64,000 nt of DNA, from assembly GCA_026415135.1 (NCBI GenBank), contig JAOAHS010000061.1, positions 1-64,000 of the forward strand, given 5' to 3'. The translations under genes and the position numbers were made by a program. The stretch is from Calditerrivibrio sp. GTDB taxonomy: Bacteria > Chrysiogenota > Deferribacteres > Deferribacterales > Calditerrivibrionaceae. Shown here one piece after another: positions 23,540 through 34,934 of this stretch; position 1 is the stretch's first letter, and the number at the start of each line of letters is the position of its first letter. The notes under the pieces were generated by a model. That model saw only the letters and a program-made list of their open reading frames with translations, ran no database searches and was not told the DNA's origin.

Positions 23540-24199
23540 ATGGAGTGCCCTTTGATAGATTTTAATATTGTTCATGAAACAGCTAATATTACACTGATCC
23601 CTGAGGAAAGGTTCAATATCTTAAATCCAGATGTGATAAAGCAACTAATAAATATCTTAGAAATAATAAAAGATTCTGAGGCTAAGACGATAGTTATCTA
23701 TGGAAGAGGTGGTTCTTTTGCTGTTGGGGCGAATATAAAGCAGATGTATGAGTATGATGGATTTATGGCAAAGGGCTTTTCCATACTTGGTAACAAACTT
23801 TTTGGCTTAATGGATTCTATTCCCCAGGTGATAATTGCTCAGATCGATGGTTTTTGCATGGGTGGTGGGATAGATTTTGCTGCTTCATGCACCATAAGAC
23901 TTGCTACCATTAGCAGTAAGTTTGCACACCCCGGGGCACAACTCGGTGTAATAACAGGCTTTGGTGGTACTCAAAGATTACCAAGAATTATGAAGCCTAA
24001 TGCCATCAGCGATTTTTTTCTTTTTGGACAGATGTATGATGCCAAATATATGTATGAGGCAAGGTTTTTGGATGCCTTGTTTGATGATTTTGATTCAATG
24101 AAAAGTTATACAGATGGGTTAGTCAGAAAAATCAATGAAAAGAATAAGGTTTTCTTAAAAGAGTTGAAAAGTTTTGGTTCAAGAGGTTGTGGATGTTGA
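23540..24199 (+). CDS. Enoyl-CoA hydratase/isomerase (crotonase) family protein
   Basis: A 219-residue crotonase-fold protein. The oxyanion-hole segments are GRGGSFAVGANIKQM and IDGFCMGGGIDFAASCTIRLA, with HPGAQLGVITGFGGTQRLPR after them. The position usually holding the first catalytic Glu of hydratases appears as Gln in PGAQLGV, so a different reaction (isomerase, decarboxylase or thioesterase type) is possible. It is shorter than the usual ~260 residues, lacking much of the C-terminal helical region, and ends in a Cys-containing tail (SRGCGC). It overlaps polA by 7 bases. No ribosome-binding site is visible, consistent with a leaderless start. Confidence 0.78.
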   Translation: MECPLIDFNIVHETANITLIPEERFNILNPDVIKQLINILEIIKDSEAKTIVIYGRGGSFAVGANIKQMYEYDGFMAKGFSILGNKLFGLMDSIPQVIIAQIDGFCMGGGIDFAASCTIRLATISSKFAHPGAQLGVITGFGGTQRLPRIMKPNAISDFFLFGQMYDAKYMYEARFLDALFDDFDSMKSYTDGLVRKINEKNKVFLKELKSFGSRGCGC

Positions 24200-26568: not shown

Positions 26569-27606
26569 ATGAAAAAAGTAAATGATATACTCAAAGAAAA
26601 TCAACTGCTCAAGAAAGAATTGGAAGGTATCTTAGAGGTAATCACGGAAAATGAGGTTAAGCTTAGGGGTTTAAAGGTTGTGGAGTTTTCGTTTTTACTT
26701 TCGGAGAGTATTGCTGAAATAGATGAAAAGGCTATGAGCTATCTTGAGGAGATTTTTGAGATAGATAAGGCTGTTCTTTTTATCAATAAAGATGAGCTTA
26801 TAATAGAATTAGATGGTTCTTTAAAACATATACTTATGGCAAATACCAAGACATTTAATTATTTTTTCTTAGAAAAAAGACCTTACCTTGGGGATAGCAC
26901 GGTGAATCTGATTTCAGAATTCAACGTTTATGATAGTATAGGTTCGTATCTAATTGCTCCTATTATCCTATATGATAGGTTTTTAGGTAGTCTAAACCTA
27001 TATAGTAGGAATCCTCGAAGGTACACAAGTGATTATAATTCAGATTTTATAAAAGATCTATGTTTTAAGATAGGTGTATCCCTCAGGAATCTCAACACAA
27101 GACAGATGCTTGTGAATCAATCGATGATAGATGAATCCTCCAATTGTTATAATAAAAAGGCAATGTATATATTTCTTGCATCTTATATAAACAGGTGTTA
27201 TCGGTATGGGCAACCATTCTCTTTCATTTTATTAGATATAAACGATTTTAAGAAGATAAATGATAAAAAGGGACATTTAGTAGGCGATAAGGTTTTATCA
27301 GAGTTCGGGAAATCTTTACTTAAGTCGTTTCGTAAAAGTGATATTATTGGTAGGTTTGGTGGTGATGAGTTTTATATTATTACACCTGAGACGGAGGAGA
27401 ATAGGTTAAAGGCGATGATCAAGAAATGTGAGACTTTATTGTCGAATATTTATAAAGATCTCGGTTTGAAAAATAAAGCTGTAGTTGCCTATGGGCTTAC
27501 TACTGTAAGAACAATTGATAAGGCCAATGAAAACCCAGAGGTGATATTTAAATTATCAGATACCGAACTATATAAAATGAAAAAGGAGAAGCATGTAAGA
27601 AGATGA
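26569..27606 (+). CDS. GAF-like (DUF484-type) diguanylate cyclase
   Basis: A 345-residue cytoplasmic protein. An N-terminal coiled coil (LKENQLLKKELEGILEVI) leads into a GAF-like sensory domain, about residues 35-175, resembling DUF484 (YDSIGSYLIAPIILYDRFLGSLNLYS). A GGDEF domain follows to the end. The active-site loop is canonical (RFGGDEFYI). An RxxD inhibitory site (RKSD) lies five residues before it, so it should make c-di-GMP and be product-inhibited. The ligand of the GAF part is unknown. It begins 3 bases after polA and overlaps hisD by 4 bases, an odd position for a signalling enzyme. Confidence 0.85.
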   Translation: MKKVNDILKENQLLKKELEGILEVITENEVKLRGLKVVEFSFLLSESIAEIDEKAMSYLEEIFEIDKAVLFINKDELIIELDGSLKHILMANTKTFNYFFLEKRPYLGDSTVNLISEFNVYDSIGSYLIAPIILYDRFLGSLNLYSRNPRRYTSDYNSDFIKDLCFKIGVSLRNLNTRQMLVNQSMIDESSNCYNKKAMYIFLASYINRCYRYGQPFSFILLDINDFKKINDKKGHLVGDKVLSEFGKSLLKSFRKSDIIGRFGGDEFYIITPETEENRLKAMIKKCETLLSNIYKDLGLKNKAVVAYGLTTVRTIDKANENPEVIFKLSDTELYKMKKEKHVRR

Positions 27607-29514: not shown

Positions 29515-30855
29515 ATGAATCCGTTGTTTATTTCGAAATATAGGGGTCTATTGGGAGATGAGGCCGATGAGTTTTTTGAATCATTGGTTAGGAAGAAAAA
29601 AAGGTATTTTAGGATAAATAGAGCTAGAGGGGTTGATTATTTAGAAGAGTTGAAAGATTATGTAGTATCCTCATCGACGATGGATGCGGTGTATTCTTAT
29701 GAAGAGCCTAACGAAGTTATTACAAATACTATTTCGTTTCTTACGGGTGGTATATATATACAAAACCCATCATCTATCATACCTGCAAGATTGCTTGTTG
29801 AATTGCTTAACGGTGATGGAGTGGTACTAGATGTATCAGCAGCACCTGGTGGCAAAACGACTGCAATGAGTGAGTATTCTAAACGTACATTAAATATTGT
29901 AGCTAACGAACCATCGAAAAGTAGGTTAAAATCATTACATTTTAATCTTGAAAAATATGGTGCCTGGAATGTCAAAACAGTATCTTTTGATGGTAGGCTG
30001 TTGCATAAAAAGTTACCACCAGTTTTTGATGGTATACTTTTAGATGCTCCCTGTAGTAATGAAAATAAGATAGGTTATAGCGATGAGGTTAGCAAACATT
30101 GGTCCCAGGATTTGGTGGATAAGATGCAAAAGCTTCAGATGGAGATACTTTTTTCTATCTCTTATCTATTGAAGCCGGGTGGGGTTTTATTGTATTCTAC
30201 TTGTACATTTTCTGTTGAAGAAAATGAAGGAAATGTTATCAAGTTCTTAGAACTTTTTCCAGATTTTGAGCTTATCGATATTAACAGAGGTTCTTTTTGT
30301 TACGGCTTATCTGGGGAGAACAGGATTGATGAAAAGGTGATTAGGGTATTTCCCCATAAAAGTGATTTCGATGGTTTTTTTGTTGCAGCTTTAAGAAAAA
30401 AAGGGGAGTTGAAAAAAGGTTCTATAAAAATACCTGACAATACTACGACGTTAAAGGATTTTTTCCCTGAGGGTGTATTTTCTGGGATTTTCAAAAAAAT
30501 AGATGATCTCCTTTTCTATGAGCTCCTTCCAACACCAGACTTTAAAAATATAAAATTCTTAAAAAGTGGTATCAAAGCAGGAAAAACAATCAATGGCTCT
30601 GTGGAGATATCTTCCCAATTTTTATGGGAGTTTGGGAGGTATATGTTTGATAGATACAAAATCAAGGTTGATAAAAAAAATGCTATTGAATTTTTATCTG
30701 GTTTTGATATAAACCTTAAGTTTGAAAAGGAAAAATTTGCTCTTTTTTATAATGGGATACCTGTGGGTGTTGTTAAAAACTTGGATGGCTATCTAAAAAA
30801 TAAGCTTGATAGGTATTTTTTGTTCGGTAGAGGTACATTATGCCAGAAGCACTAA
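29515..30855 (+). CDS. RsmB/RsmF-type rRNA m5C methyltransferase
   Basis: A 446-residue SAM-dependent RNA cytosine-C5 methyltransferase of the NOL1/NOP2/Sun family. The SAM loop is LDVSAAPGGKTTAMS; the two catalytic cysteines are in DAPCSNENKIGY (motif IV) and LYSTCTFSVEENE (motif VI). A long C-terminal region with FYNGIPVGVVKN resembles the RsmF (YebU) tail, so 16S rRNA is the probable substrate, but the exact base is not shown. A GTG at 29506 overlaps the rpe stop and could be the start instead; neither has a strong ribosome-binding site. It overlaps the next gene by 16 bases. Confidence 0.85.
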   Translation: MNPLFISKYRGLLGDEADEFFESLVRKKKRYFRINRARGVDYLEELKDYVVSSSTMDAVYSYEEPNEVITNTISFLTGGIYIQNPSSIIPARLLVELLNGDGVVLDVSAAPGGKTTAMSEYSKRTLNIVANEPSKSRLKSLHFNLEKYGAWNVKTVSFDGRLLHKKLPPVFDGILLDAPCSNENKIGYSDEVSKHWSQDLVDKMQKLQMEILFSISYLLKPGGVLLYSTCTFSVEENEGNVIKFLELFPDFELIDINRGSFCYGLSGENRIDEKVIRVFPHKSDFDGFFVAALRKKGELKKGSIKIPDNTTTLKDFFPEGVFSGIFKKIDDLLFYELLPTPDFKNIKFLKSGIKAGKTINGSVEISSQFLWEFGRYMFDRYKIKVDKKNAIEFLSGFDINLKFEKEKFALFYNGIPVGVVKNLDGYLKNKLDRYFLFGRGTLCQKH

Positions 30856-32126
30856 TTGTTGAAGATAGTAAGTTTTTTCAAAAGATTATAGAAAATGAGT
30901 TAAGGGAATTGGACTATAATACAGTTTGTGTTTCAAATCTAAGTGAAGCCAGGGAGCAGCTGCGGAGTAATAAAAGATTTCATATAGTTACGATAGATAT
31001 AGAATTACCTGATGGTTCAGGTTATGATTTATGCAGAGAGATCAAAGAAGATCCCAAATTTAGCTACTTGCAGCCCATAATAATTACATCAACTACAGAG
31101 AAAGATAGCCGTAAAAAAGCTTTTGATTCTGGGGCTATTGCTTATATTGAAAAAGATGCGGTTCAAAGATTATTGAAAAACTACATAAAGAATATCCTAT
31201 CCATAATAAACAATATATCGTACTCAAATAACTGGGTAATTCTACTGGAAGACAGTGATTTTCAAAGAAAATATATGAAAAGTATCCTTGAGTTTGCTGG
31301 TTTGAAAGTAATAGATTTTAAGGACAATAAATCTCTACTAACTTTTCTGGAGGATGAGCGTCCTGTTGTGGATCTGGCTTTGCTTGATTATTTTTTGGAG
31401 TCTGGGACATCATTGGAGACAATATCTTATCTTAGAAGCTCAAAGATGTATGAACAGGTGCCTGTGATAACATTAACGGTATCCAATGAATTATCTCATA
31501 AATACGAAATATTTATGATGGGTGCCAACGATTTTATTTTAAAGCCTTTCGATACAGGTGATTTTTATTTAAGAATAAGGAATCAGTTAAGAACTAAGTA
31601 TCTACTTGATATGTTGGATGCCAAAAATAAGCTTTTAATGATATCGTCCATCACTGATGAGCTTACCAAGTTGTACAATAGAAGATTTTTTTGGGAAAAC
31701 CTTGAGAAAGAAGCTAAGAGACACAACAGAACTAATTCAGAATATTCTATTATCATGTTAGATATCGATCATTTCAAAATGATAAATGATAAATATGGCC
31801 ACTCTACGGGGGATTTAGTATTAAGCGATGTGGCTTTTACAATTAAAAACGCGATTAGGAACACTGACGTTGTTGCAAGATATGGTGGAGAAGAGTTTAT
31901 AGTTTTACTGCCTGATACAAAAAAGGAAAATGCTCTAAAGGTAGGGGAAAAGATATTAAATGCTATTAGGGATATCCCCGTGAATTTTAGAAAAGCGCCA
32001 ATTACAACAAGTGCTGGGTTAGCGAGTTCTTCTGAAAGGGATCATTATGAAAAGGTAATAGCTCTTGCAGATGAAAGGTTATACAAAGCAAAAAACAATG
32101 GGAGAAATAGGATTGAGTATGATTAA
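30840..32126 (+). CDS. Response regulator with two receiver domains and GGDEF output (PleD-like)
   Basis: A 428-residue protein with receiver 1 (about 1-120), receiver 2 (about 135-255) and GGDEF (about 270-428), the architecture of PleD. Receiver 1 keeps its phosphoacceptor Asp in TIDIELPDGSGYD; receiver 2 has Asp in LALLDYFLESGTS. The cyclase loop is ARYGGEEFIVLLP and an RxxD inhibitory site (RNTD) precedes it by five residues, so it should be an active, feedback-inhibited diguanylate cyclase gated by phosphorylation. No kinase gene adjoins it. It overlaps the methyltransferase and the next peptidoglycan gene. Confidence 0.9.
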   Translation: MPEALIVEDSKFFQKIIENELRELDYNTVCVSNLSEAREQLRSNKRFHIVTIDIELPDGSGYDLCREIKEDPKFSYLQPIIITSTTEKDSRKKAFDSGAIAYIEKDAVQRLLKNYIKNILSIINNISYSNNWVILLEDSDFQRKYMKSILEFAGLKVIDFKDNKSLLTFLEDERPVVDLALLDYFLESGTSLETISYLRSSKMYEQVPVITLTVSNELSHKYEIFMMGANDFILKPFDTGDFYLRIRNQLRTKYLLDMLDAKNKLLMISSITDELTKLYNRRFFWENLEKEAKRHNRTNSEYSIIMLDIDHFKMINDKYGHSTGDLVLSDVAFTIKNAIRNTDVVARYGGEEFIVLLPDTKKENALKVGEKILNAIRDIPVNFRKAPITTSAGLASSSERDHYEKVIALADERLYKAKNNGRNRIEYD

Positions 32127-33519
32127 AGTAAAAATGCTGAAATACTTACTTTTCTTTTTGCTTTTTCTTGCTACAGATTTGTATGCTGCAAACAAGATAT
32201 TAGCAGATGTTATGGCAAAGGGTGTAAGCTATCAAAAGGTTTTTCTTGTTGATAAAAGTGCTAAGAAATCATTTCTGATTGAGATTAAAAACGATTCTAT
32301 TAGCATCTTAAAGGAATTTGATGGATTGATTATAGGTGAAGGTAACGGTGATAAAAGAAAAGAGGGTGACAAAAAAACACCTACGGGAGTTTATTATGTT
32401 ACAGGTTTTATCCCCCAATCAAAGCTTGATAAAATCTATGGTACCGGTGCTTTCCCATTAAATTATCCAAATTTTGTTGATAAGCTATATGGTAAAACTG
32501 GTCATGGCATATGGATTCATGGTAGAGATCCTAAGGAGCATAAGCAGGCCTCAAAAGGGTGTGTAGTGTTAAAAAATGAAGATATTGATTATCTCAGATC
32601 GATCGACTTTTTAGGGACTCCTGTGGTTATTGCAGAACATCTTACATATACCGATGAAATAAATTATAATTCGGAAAAATCTTTTTGGCTGAACTTCTTA
32701 AATGAGTTTTATGAAAGCTGGAAAAATAATGACATAAATAGACTTAGTAAATTGATACATGTTCGTTTTAAAGATAGTAAGCATAGCAGTTATGCTGAAT
32801 ATATTCAACGCAAAAAAGCTCTTATGGAGATGTATCCTGATAAGAAGATAGTTTTTGAAAATATAAAGATATATAAAGAGAATGATAGCGAAGTTGTTTT
32901 CGATTTTGATCAATATTATTCGGCACCAAACATCACAACCTATGGTACAAAAAGGCTATATCTCATTAAAGAGGCAAACGATTTTAAGATCATAGCTGAG
33001 GAATACATTCAAAAGCCTATTCCTGATAGATTTAAAAATGTGGTATTAGAAAAGTCTGAAAAACCTAAAGTTGAAGTCAAGGAGCAGACCAAAGTTGTAG
33101 TATCTGATAACAAGCAGGAGAAGAAGCTACCTGATAATAAAACGACAAAAGAGGAAAAACTTAAAGGTAAAGATTTTGACGGCATGGTGAAGGATTTTGT
33201 AAAAGAATGGAAAGAAAGTTGGGAGTCAAAGGATATTGACAGGTATATAGCCTTTTATGGTGAAGATTTTAGGTCAGGTAAATTGGACTACAAGGGTTGG
33301 AAAGAAGATAAAAAAGCTAAGTTTGAGCGGATTAAGTCGATCAAAGTTGATATAACTGATCTTAAAATTAAAAGGTTGAGTGATTCAAGGTATGAGGTGA
33401 CATTTAAACAGATCTATAAAACAGAATCGATGAACAACAAGGGGATCAAAAAACTTACAATATCTAAAGAGGGTAGCAGTTTTAAGATTGTTGGAGAAAG
33501 CTGGAGCCCCAGTAGATGA
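32119..33519 (+). CDS. YkuD-fold L,D-carboxypeptidase/transpeptidase with NTF2-like tails (Csd6/Pgp2-like)
   Basis: A 466-residue exported enzyme. The ATG at 32119 overlaps the previous stop and begins a signal peptide ending DLYAAN. The YkuD catalytic domain (about 25-170) has GIWIHGRDP with His about 134 and ASKGCVVL with Cys about 148. Two NTF2/SnoaL-like modules follow (FLNEFYESWKNNDINRLSKL and FVKEWKESWESKDIDRYIAF), separated by a Lys/Glu-rich linker. A YkuD domain followed by NTF2 is the architecture of Helicobacter Csd6 and Campylobacter Pgp2, which trim tetrapeptides to tripeptides and set helical shape. The next gene encodes the partner Csd4/Pgp1-like enzyme. Two NTF2 units instead of one is unusual. 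Confidence 0.8.
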   Translation: MIKVKMLKYLLFFLLFLATDLYAANKILADVMAKGVSYQKVFLVDKSAKKSFLIEIKNDSISILKEFDGLIIGEGNGDKRKEGDKKTPTGVYYVTGFIPQSKLDKIYGTGAFPLNYPNFVDKLYGKTGHGIWIHGRDPKEHKQASKGCVVLKNEDIDYLRSIDFLGTPVVIAEHLTYTDEINYNSEKSFWLNFLNEFYESWKNNDINRLSKLIHVRFKDSKHSSYAEYIQRKKALMEMYPDKKIVFENIKIYKENDSEVVFDFDQYYSAPNITTYGTKRLYLIKEANDFKIIAEEYIQKPIPDRFKNVVLEKSEKPKVEVKEQTKVVVSDNKQEKKLPDNKTTKEEKLKGKDFDGMVKDFVKEWKESWESKDIDRYIAFYGEDFRSGKLDYKGWKEDKKAKFERIKSIKVDITDLKIKRLSDSRYEVTFKQIYKTESMNNKGIKKLTISKEGSSFKIVGESWSPSR

Positions 33520-34934
33520 TATTTAGGGTATTATGGTTTCTTGTAATATTTTTGATACCTTTATGGGGTAGTCCCCTTGATAGGCCTTCGGTGAAGCATG
33601 AGGTCTATCTTGAGGGTACAGATTATGAATTACATATTTATAGGATCTACGGTAAAGAGCCAGGGAAAAAGGGGCTTATTGTTGGTGGTATTCAAGGTGA
33701 TGAGCCTGGTGGGTATCTATCCGCAGACTTATATGTAGATTCTTGGCTTGAAAGGGGTGATCTGATTATTGTACCCAGAGCCAATTTTAAATCGATAATA
33801 CTTTTTAATCGTGGCACAGATGGTGATATGAACAGAAGATTCATCGATGCTAAAAAAAAGCATGAAATGGATCAAGTGATAGATATTATAAAAGGGTTGA
33901 TGGCTGAATCAGATTTTTTTCTACACCTACATGATGGTTCAGGTTTTTATTCCCCTGTTTATGTGAACCCATTAAGAAATCCAAACAGATGGGGTCAATC
34001 TGTTATTGTAGATGCAGAGGTCTATAGCTGTGGTGACAAGGTGTTAGACCTGGGTAAAATGGCTAAAAGGGTTGTGGCAGAAACAAATAAGAAGATTCAA
34101 AATAAGAAATATCATTTTGAGTATTTCAATACTGATACTGATAACCCGGAAACAAAGTACAAAGAGATGAAAAAGACAGCTACTTATTACGCTCTGAAAA
34201 ATTATTGTATACCATCCTTTGGGCTTGAAACATCTAAAAACTTACCAGATGATAAAACAAAAATACTTCATAAGACCTATCTAATAAATGAATTTTTTAA
34301 AATATTCGATTTAAAACCTGAAATCCCTGAGATTGTTTTACCAAAACCTTTTTTGAAACATATTGTAATTAAGCATGATGATAATTTTTTAGAGTTGAAA
34401 AATGGTTCTGTGGTAACGTTCCCATTAGGGACAAAACTTATGGTTTATGATATTGTATCTAACTATAAAAGAGGGCTTTCTTGTGATATCTTGGGCTTTA
34501 ATGGGCTAAATGATTCGAAAATACCTTTTGTCATTGAAAAAGATACAGATATTATCTGTAGAAAAGATCATCATGTTATAGGGAAGATCACTTTGAAAAT
34601 ACAACGGGATAACGTTAGTGAAAAGTATTTTGAAGTTGAAGTTAATGGGGTTGTTAAAAAAATAAAAGATGGGCAAAAGTTATTCTTAAGTAATGGTGAT
34701 CAGTTTGTTTTAAAGGATTTCGATAATGATCCTACGATACCTGTGAATCTTAGAGGGTTTGTCCCTAAAAATGTCAAGGTAAATGATGGGGATGATAGAA
34801 ATATTTTGATTCCAGTTGATAAGGCTCTTTTTATGAAAAGGTTTTCCAGTGATAATGGTACAACCTATGAAGTAATAGCTGGTTCTTTGAATCAGGTAAA
34901 AGGGAAGTTTTTTATTGCAATTGACAGTAAGTAA
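33516..34934 (+). CDS. M14/M99-type peptidoglycan D,L-carboxypeptidase (Csd4/Pgp1-like)
   Basis: A 472-residue exported zinc carboxypeptidase (signal peptide about residues 1-19). The zinc site reads GGIQGDEPGG, with Gln60 and Glu63 in a QxxE arrangement. That is the hallmark of Helicobacter Csd4, where Gln replaces the usual His. The third ligand is in FLHLHDGSG (His137 or His139) and the catalytic Glu in SFGLETSK (Glu238). The C-terminal ~220 residues form extra beta-rich domains, as in Csd4/Pgp1. Those enzymes cut tripeptide stems to dipeptides and give cells helical curvature. It overlaps the Csd6/Pgp2-like gene by 4 bases, so the two act as a pair. Confidence 0.82.
   Translation: MIFRVLWFLVIFLIPLWGSPLDRPSVKHEVYLEGTDYELHIYRIYGKEPGKKGLIVGGIQGDEPGGYLSADLYVDSWLERGDLIIVPRANFKSIILFNRGTDGDMNRRFIDAKKKHEMDQVIDIIKGLMAESDFFLHLHDGSGFYSPVYVNPLRNPNRWGQSVIVDAEVYSCGDKVLDLGKMAKRVVAETNKKIQNKKYHFEYFNTDTDNPETKYKEMKKTATYYALKNYCIPSFGLETSKNLPDDKTKILHKTYLINEFFKIFDLKPEIPEIVLPKPFLKHIVIKHDDNFLELKNGSVVTFPLGTKLMVYDIVSNYKRGLSCDILGFNGLNDSKIPFVIEKDTDIICRKDHHVIGKITLKIQRDNVSEKYFEVEVNGVVKKIKDGQKLFLSNGDQFVLKDFDNDPTIPVNLRGFVPKNVKVNDGDDRNILIPVDKALFMKRFSSDNGTTYEVIAGSLNQVKGKFFIAIDSK

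Follow-up and report, generated by a model that had tools for sequence, protein, structure and literature searches.

Bending of the bacterial cell by trimming of peptidoglycan stem peptides is so far known from two Campylobacterota, Helicobacter pylori and Campylobacter jejuni, and from one predator, Bdellovibrio bacteriovorus. The genes csd6 and pgp2 lie at loci separate from csd4 and pgp1. Curved or helical shape depends on all three characterised YkuD-NTF2 enzymes (Csd6, Pgp2 and Bd1075) and on both characterised M99 enzymes (Csd4 and Pgp1) (PMC8938487, PMC8038945, PMC3844677, PMC3310789, PMC3310797); mutants of these enzymes turn into rods (PMC3310789, PMC3310797, PMC8938487), and the product of Pgp2 is the substrate of Pgp1 (PMC8038945). 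Bd1075 is the Csd6-type curvature enzyme of Bdellovibrio (PMC8938487); its Trp303 is required for placement at the convex face of the cell, and other such enzymes were said to lack it (Banks et al., PMC8938487). Homologues of Pgp1 and Csd4 were reported from the delta and epsilon groups, as well as from 'a few extremophiles', and most of the species concerned are curved or helical (Sycuro 2012, Frirdich 2012; PMC3310789, PMC3310797), and a Csd6 homologue of Thermovibrio was aligned by Kim 2015. Occurrence outside the Campylobacterota, which a preliminary description of the present locus had emphasised, was therefore already on record in 2012, although the enzyme assignments made in that description are supported by the data below.

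The window analysed here is a stretch of 64,000 nucleotides from Calditerrivibrio sp. (contig JAOAHS010000061.1); the 1.98 Mb genome belongs to the same genus as G006, taken as Calditerrivibrio nitroreducens Yu37-1. From position 24187 onward, genes touch one another on the same strand in the order polA, GGDEF gene, hisD, rpe, rsmF-like gene, REC-REC-GGDEF gene and then the ykuD-M99 pair (hisD and rpe were named from their own sequences and not via a search). Reading of the sequence bears out the four-base overlap between the two genes noted at the outset. The pair had also been said to follow two diguanylate cyclases: two GGDEF genes do lie upstream (the further one at 26569-27606, by Pfam), but the first is set apart from the second, the immediate neighbour of the pair, by hisD, rpe and the rsmF-like gene. 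Neither is such a neighbour a general feature. In a survey of neighbours across the class, the PleD-like gene occupied the slot before the pair only in families f1 and f2 and in one f4 genome; because it adjoins the pair in just three families, we rejected a strict regulatory tie to c-di-GMP.

Features of the locus in the window, and the segment missing from Flexistipes.
Feature	Position	Strand	Basis
REC-REC-GGDEF diguanylate cyclase (PleD-like)	30840..32126	+	Pfam; 8-base overlap with ykuD start
ykuD-NTF2-NTF2 gene (Csd6/Pgp2/Bd1075-type predicted L,D-carboxypeptidase, 466 aa)	32119..33519	+	ORF, Pfam, PDB sequence matches, fold search
N-terminal hydrophobic helix, likely Sec signal peptide	32119..32184	+	helix 2-22 in model and residue pattern
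YkuD catalytic domain; His134 codon 32518-32520, Cys148 codon 32560-32562	32236..32631	+	PF03734
NTF2-like copy 1; pocket residues K232, Y267, K278, E294 kept	32692..33003	+	PF24125 7.2e-13; invariant columns
NTF2-like copy 2; pocket residues K444, E460 kept	33187..33498	+	PF24125 1.3e-19
Invariant Trp462 just after NTF2 copy 2	codon 33502-33504	+	32/32; aligned to Bd1075 W303
ATGA overlap, ykuD stop / M99 start	33516..33519	+	sequence; same -4 spacing in 19/40 class pairs measured
M99 gene (Csd4/Pgp1-type predicted D,L-carboxypeptidase, 472 aa)	33516..34934	+	ORF, PF17033, Foldseek
M99 catalytic domain; Q60 (33693-33695), E63 (33702-33704), H139 (33930-33932), E238 (34227-34229)	33669..34271	+	alignment to Csd4
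M99 C-terminal all-beta part, matches Csd4 beta-barrel plus Ig-like arrangement	34353..34922	+	model strands, profile, Foldseek
~7 kb segment (pleD, ykuD, M99, chemoreceptor, GGDEF gene) missing from Flexistipes	L113:5399-5408 vs L092:4964-12045

The first protein of the pair matches YkuD (PF03734, 5.9e-15) and, in two stretches, the Csd6-type NTF2 family (PF24125, 1.6e-28), both above the curated cut-offs; fusion of these domains is a feature of Csd6, Pgp2 and Bd1075, and the fold agrees. Among PDB sequences Bd1075 is the best match (2.2e-38), ahead of Csd6 (1.2e-23), and Pgp2 also matches strongly. AlphaFold2 models of the M99 and YkuD proteins reached pLDDT values of 91.3 and 88.5, respectively. 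A Foldseek search with the latter ranked Bd1075 (3e-24), Csd6 (2e-21) and Pgp2 (5e-21) far ahead of DpaA (1e-7), and an ordinary L,D-transpeptidase was absent among the 50 matches listed. The catalytic residues of Csd6 and Pgp2 are present as H134, G147 and C148, invariant across 32 sequences, and the stretch from His-Gly to Cys spans 12 residues compared to 14 in Csd6. Arg at the second position after the Cys marks transpeptidases (a rule given in PMC8938487); here the position holds V150, a Val as in Bd1075, and A, S or V in all 32 relatives, never Arg. The window's genome encodes no YkuD-domain protein besides this one, and the same holds for C. nitroreducens, which means that these genomes have no separate YkuD-type L,D-transpeptidase.

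The second protein belongs to the Peptidase_M99 family (PF17033, 1e-39; 137 bits against a cut-off of 27). Its only match among PDB sequences is Csd4 (1e-28), and the five best PDB folds for its model are all Csd4 (best E 2e-27, next family 5e-10). Q60, E63 and H139 align with Csd4 Gln46, Glu49 and His128, and E238 with Glu222, residues with zinc-ligand and general-base roles in Csd4 (PMC4220969); all four are invariant in 30 M99 sequences, and the substrate Arg and Asn are shared with Csd4 and Pgp1 as well. The order of three domains (carboxypeptidase, beta-barrel, Ig-like) is that of Csd4 in a full-length Foldseek match (482 columns, TMt 0.57), whose large rmsd means that domain order agrees and relative orientation is uncertain. 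The C-terminal part is only weakly alike in sequence (a weak profile match to Csd4 338-437), and, unlike Csd4 and Pgp1, the protein represents a full-length form (36-49% identity) that is widespread outside the Campylobacterota and is encoded by a gene overlapping that of its YkuD partner. The domain readings made from the letters of the window thus agree with the family and structure comparisons: an M14-type carboxypeptidase with the rare QxxE site (Gln60/Glu63) that falls with Csd4, and a YkuD-fold enzyme followed by NTF2-like modules that groups with Bd1075, Csd6 and Pgp2 and not with ordinary L,D-transpeptidases.

The preliminary description had further remarked on two NTF2-like units in place of one. 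Both Pfam and the AlphaFold2 model confirm them, but they are how the linked gene is usually built and no peculiarity of this protein: two units were present in 93, and one in 23, of 116 collected YkuD ORFs (some partial or duplicate). For the profiles of both copy 1 and copy 2 the best match is Bd1075, followed by Csd6 and Pgp2, and K278/E294 in the former and K444/E460 in the latter align with the Lys and Glu of the peptidoglycan-binding pocket of Pgp2 (PMC8038945). The terminal Trp, thought to be special to Bd1075, occurs in copy 2 only, where it ends the last NTF2 unit in all 32 aligned tandem proteins; a few Desulfobacterota tandem proteins outside this alignment finish in Phe or Tyr. Bd1075 differs in having one NTF2 unit, and the window protein in being partnered with an M99 enzyme; Csd6 and Pgp2 have one NTF2 unit without a terminal Trp. 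Because the N-terminal dimerisation region of Csd6, which Pgp2 is expected to share, is absent from the window protein, as it is from Bd1075, two NTF2 units in a single chain may replace the Csd6-type dimer.

Linkage of the two genes extends well beyond the window. Of the 51 genomes of the phylum, 44 have both M99 and the Csd6-type domain, and the remaining seven have neither. A search for the adjacent pair, proposed when the locus was first described, showed that ykuD and M99 lie side by side in every one of the 41 carriers from the window's class, with gaps from -49 to +90 bp and a spacing of -4 or -16 bp in 33 of the 40 pairs measured. That the order is kept across the class argues against chance as an explanation for the arrangement. 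Three genomes of the most distant group (f10, probably relatives of Chrysiogenes) carry M99 and YkuD genes that are unlinked, with one NTF2 unit. Their M99 proteins (L061, L062 and L063, from G003, G002 and G001, respectively) have an HxxE site (IHGDE) in place of QxxE, like engineered Csd4 Q46H (PDB 4wcm).

A scan of contigs from named genomes revealed M99 relatives in Desulfobacterota, Neomarinimicrobiota and Gammaproteobacteria (Balneatrix, Pokkaliibacter, Chromatiaceae), and others are present in MAGs labelled Nitrospirae, Gemmatimonadales and the like. A YkuD-NTF2 gene shares the M99 locus in 71 of 80 loci, mostly from other phyla and chosen by similarity to the window protein (and so not a random sample), and nearly always lies upstream, either directly or at a distance of one gene. 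Among 79 Desulfobacterota genomes drawn evenly, 15 carry M99, and all of these also have the Csd6-type domain, while five have that domain without M99 (Fisher p 3e-12; this, like the other co-occurrence counts, is uncorrected for shared ancestry); in 11 of the 15 the two genes are close neighbours by coordinates. M99 is thus never found without the Csd6-type domain, either in the 44 genomes of the phylum or in the 15 Desulfobacterota, a one-way dependence in keeping with the reaction order, in which the YkuD enzyme would supply M99 with its tripeptide substrate. The trees of the two proteins are congruent (r 0.70; at most 0.14 in permutations), but a common species history would be enough to yield this, and we give it little weight.

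The distribution of the pair may be set beside cell shape, as recorded in species descriptions of a few strains (many carriers are uncultured). The expectation of a vibrioid host is borne out at the level of the genus: C. nitroreducens Yu37-1 is vibrio-shaped and motile (PMC3072091). Denitrovibrio acetiphilus (taken as G017) is vibroid, and the phylum is described as curved or spiral. Whether straight-celled relatives carry the pair has a mixed answer, for Deferrivibrio metallireducens (taken as G012), which carries it, is 'straight- to slightly vibrio-shaped'. Flexistipes, which does not carry it, is straight to acutely bent. Bactofilin is encoded in 50 of the 51 genomes, Flexistipes included, and three to four M23 peptidases in all nine genomes tested. 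The single bactofilin gene lies ~12-14 kb from ykuD-M99 in eight f5 genomes (G017, G018, G019, G024-G028) and ~24 kb from the pair in G006.

Flexistipes offers a natural loss. In G015, of the same genus, rsmF, pleD, ykuD and M99 come in this order, with a chemoreceptor and a GGDEF gene after them; in the Flexistipes genomes G014 and G016 the gene beyond this block begins within 9 bp of the rsmF-like gene, and no YkuD protein was found in either genome. Loss of the pair and its flanks as one segment is the likelier direction, because rsmF-ykuD-M99 is a widespread gene order in the class. G031, G034, G046, G049 and G050 were rejected as real losses: the rsmF-like gene is also missing, so assembly gaps or divergence may explain them, and Flexistipes is the only supported case. 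It is nevertheless one confounded event: the rods of F. sinusarabici are described as straight to acutely bent, and they lack motility as well.

We consider it probable that the two proteins trim stem peptides from tetra to tri to di, aimed by the two NTF2 modules, and so set curvature. Both would be secreted, and together would form a two-step trimmer: the YkuD-NTF2-NTF2 protein would take off D-Ala4, turning tetrapeptide into tripeptide, and the M99 protein would next take off meso-DAP3, leaving a dipeptide. The NTF2 modules would bind peptidoglycan and aim the YkuD enzyme, and trimming aimed unevenly round the cell would bend the wall. We propose that the genes remain together because the second enzyme acts on what the first one makes. 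The trimming chemistry we infer strongly, from family and active site; a role in localisation and shape we infer from the homologues and from the one confounded loss. It is in this sense that the pair, put forward earlier as a strong candidate for the curvature determinant, keeps its candidacy on comparative evidence.

The same trimming might instead serve wall turnover, recycling or envelope stress, with curvature arising from bactofilin, M23 peptidases and other factors. The near-universal bactofilin, the M23 peptidases and the nearly straight form of D. metallireducens are all compatible with this, and a literature search found no shape experiment in the phylum. We nevertheless regard it as unlikely, because every characterised enzyme of either type is needed for curved or helical form, and because Csd4 is absent from Campylobacterota of other shapes (C. 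hominis, Sulfurovum). A further explanation dispenses with the trimming itself, making the YkuD protein an ordinary L,D-transpeptidase (one that forms 3-3 crosslinks or anchors proteins of the outer membrane) or else an amidase of the DpaA type, with M99 an unrelated neighbour. As the only YkuD protein in its genome it would then be the sole such enzyme, and there is a weak NCBIfam match to DpaA (3.8e-6). That match is far below its cut-off, however, and the residue two positions after the catalytic Cys, the Csd6-specific NTF2 modules, the fold ranking and the company of M99 kept across phyla all point elsewhere; we therefore set both versions aside as highly improbable.

Beyond trimming as a shape-setting activity of the pair, a broader reading is that many diderm phyla have in the linked genes an ancestral, in part mobile 'curvature cassette', in which the tandem NTF2 replaces the Csd6/Pgp2 dimer (one monomer with two peptidoglycan-binding pockets, the Trp-bearing second setting one-sided placement), and of which the Helicobacter and Campylobacter version is split and derived. 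We offer this tentatively, and would sooner doubt it than assert it. New here are the class-wide linkage, the pair across phyla, the commonness of the tandem NTF2 with its Trp, and the Flexistipes loss; earlier descriptions of a linked csd4/csd6 pair or of tandem NTF2 units were not found in the open-access literature, which for the former is not proof of absence. If a conserved two-gene unit sets shape in several phyla, then this would be a general bacterial shape mechanism, and one from which the curved members among uncultured bacteria could be predicted. With its strictly kept Trp, the tandem NTF2 would make one-sided enzyme placement addressable by point mutation beyond Bd1075.

Some individual loci deserve mention. 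L118, L120 and L122, from MAGs labelled Nitrospirae or Thermodesulfovibrio, sit among Deferribacterota in the M99 tree, which suggests either transfer of the cassette or mislabelled bins. The M99 protein of one Desulfobacterota genome (G133:C1:2776446-2777132) scores 273 bits, about twice the others, which suggests a Campylobacterota-type copy gained by transfer, and its gene is unlinked to that genome's own YkuD-NTF2 gene; another (G087) has six Csd6-type NTF2 domain matches without M99. Many Desulfobacterota loci encode, between ykuD and M99, a membrane-anchored and partly coiled-coil protein of ~230-265 aa with no Pfam family above cut-off (for example L139:4114-4911, L140:4194-4934, L152:4113-4802 and L173:4133-4885), a possible third component.
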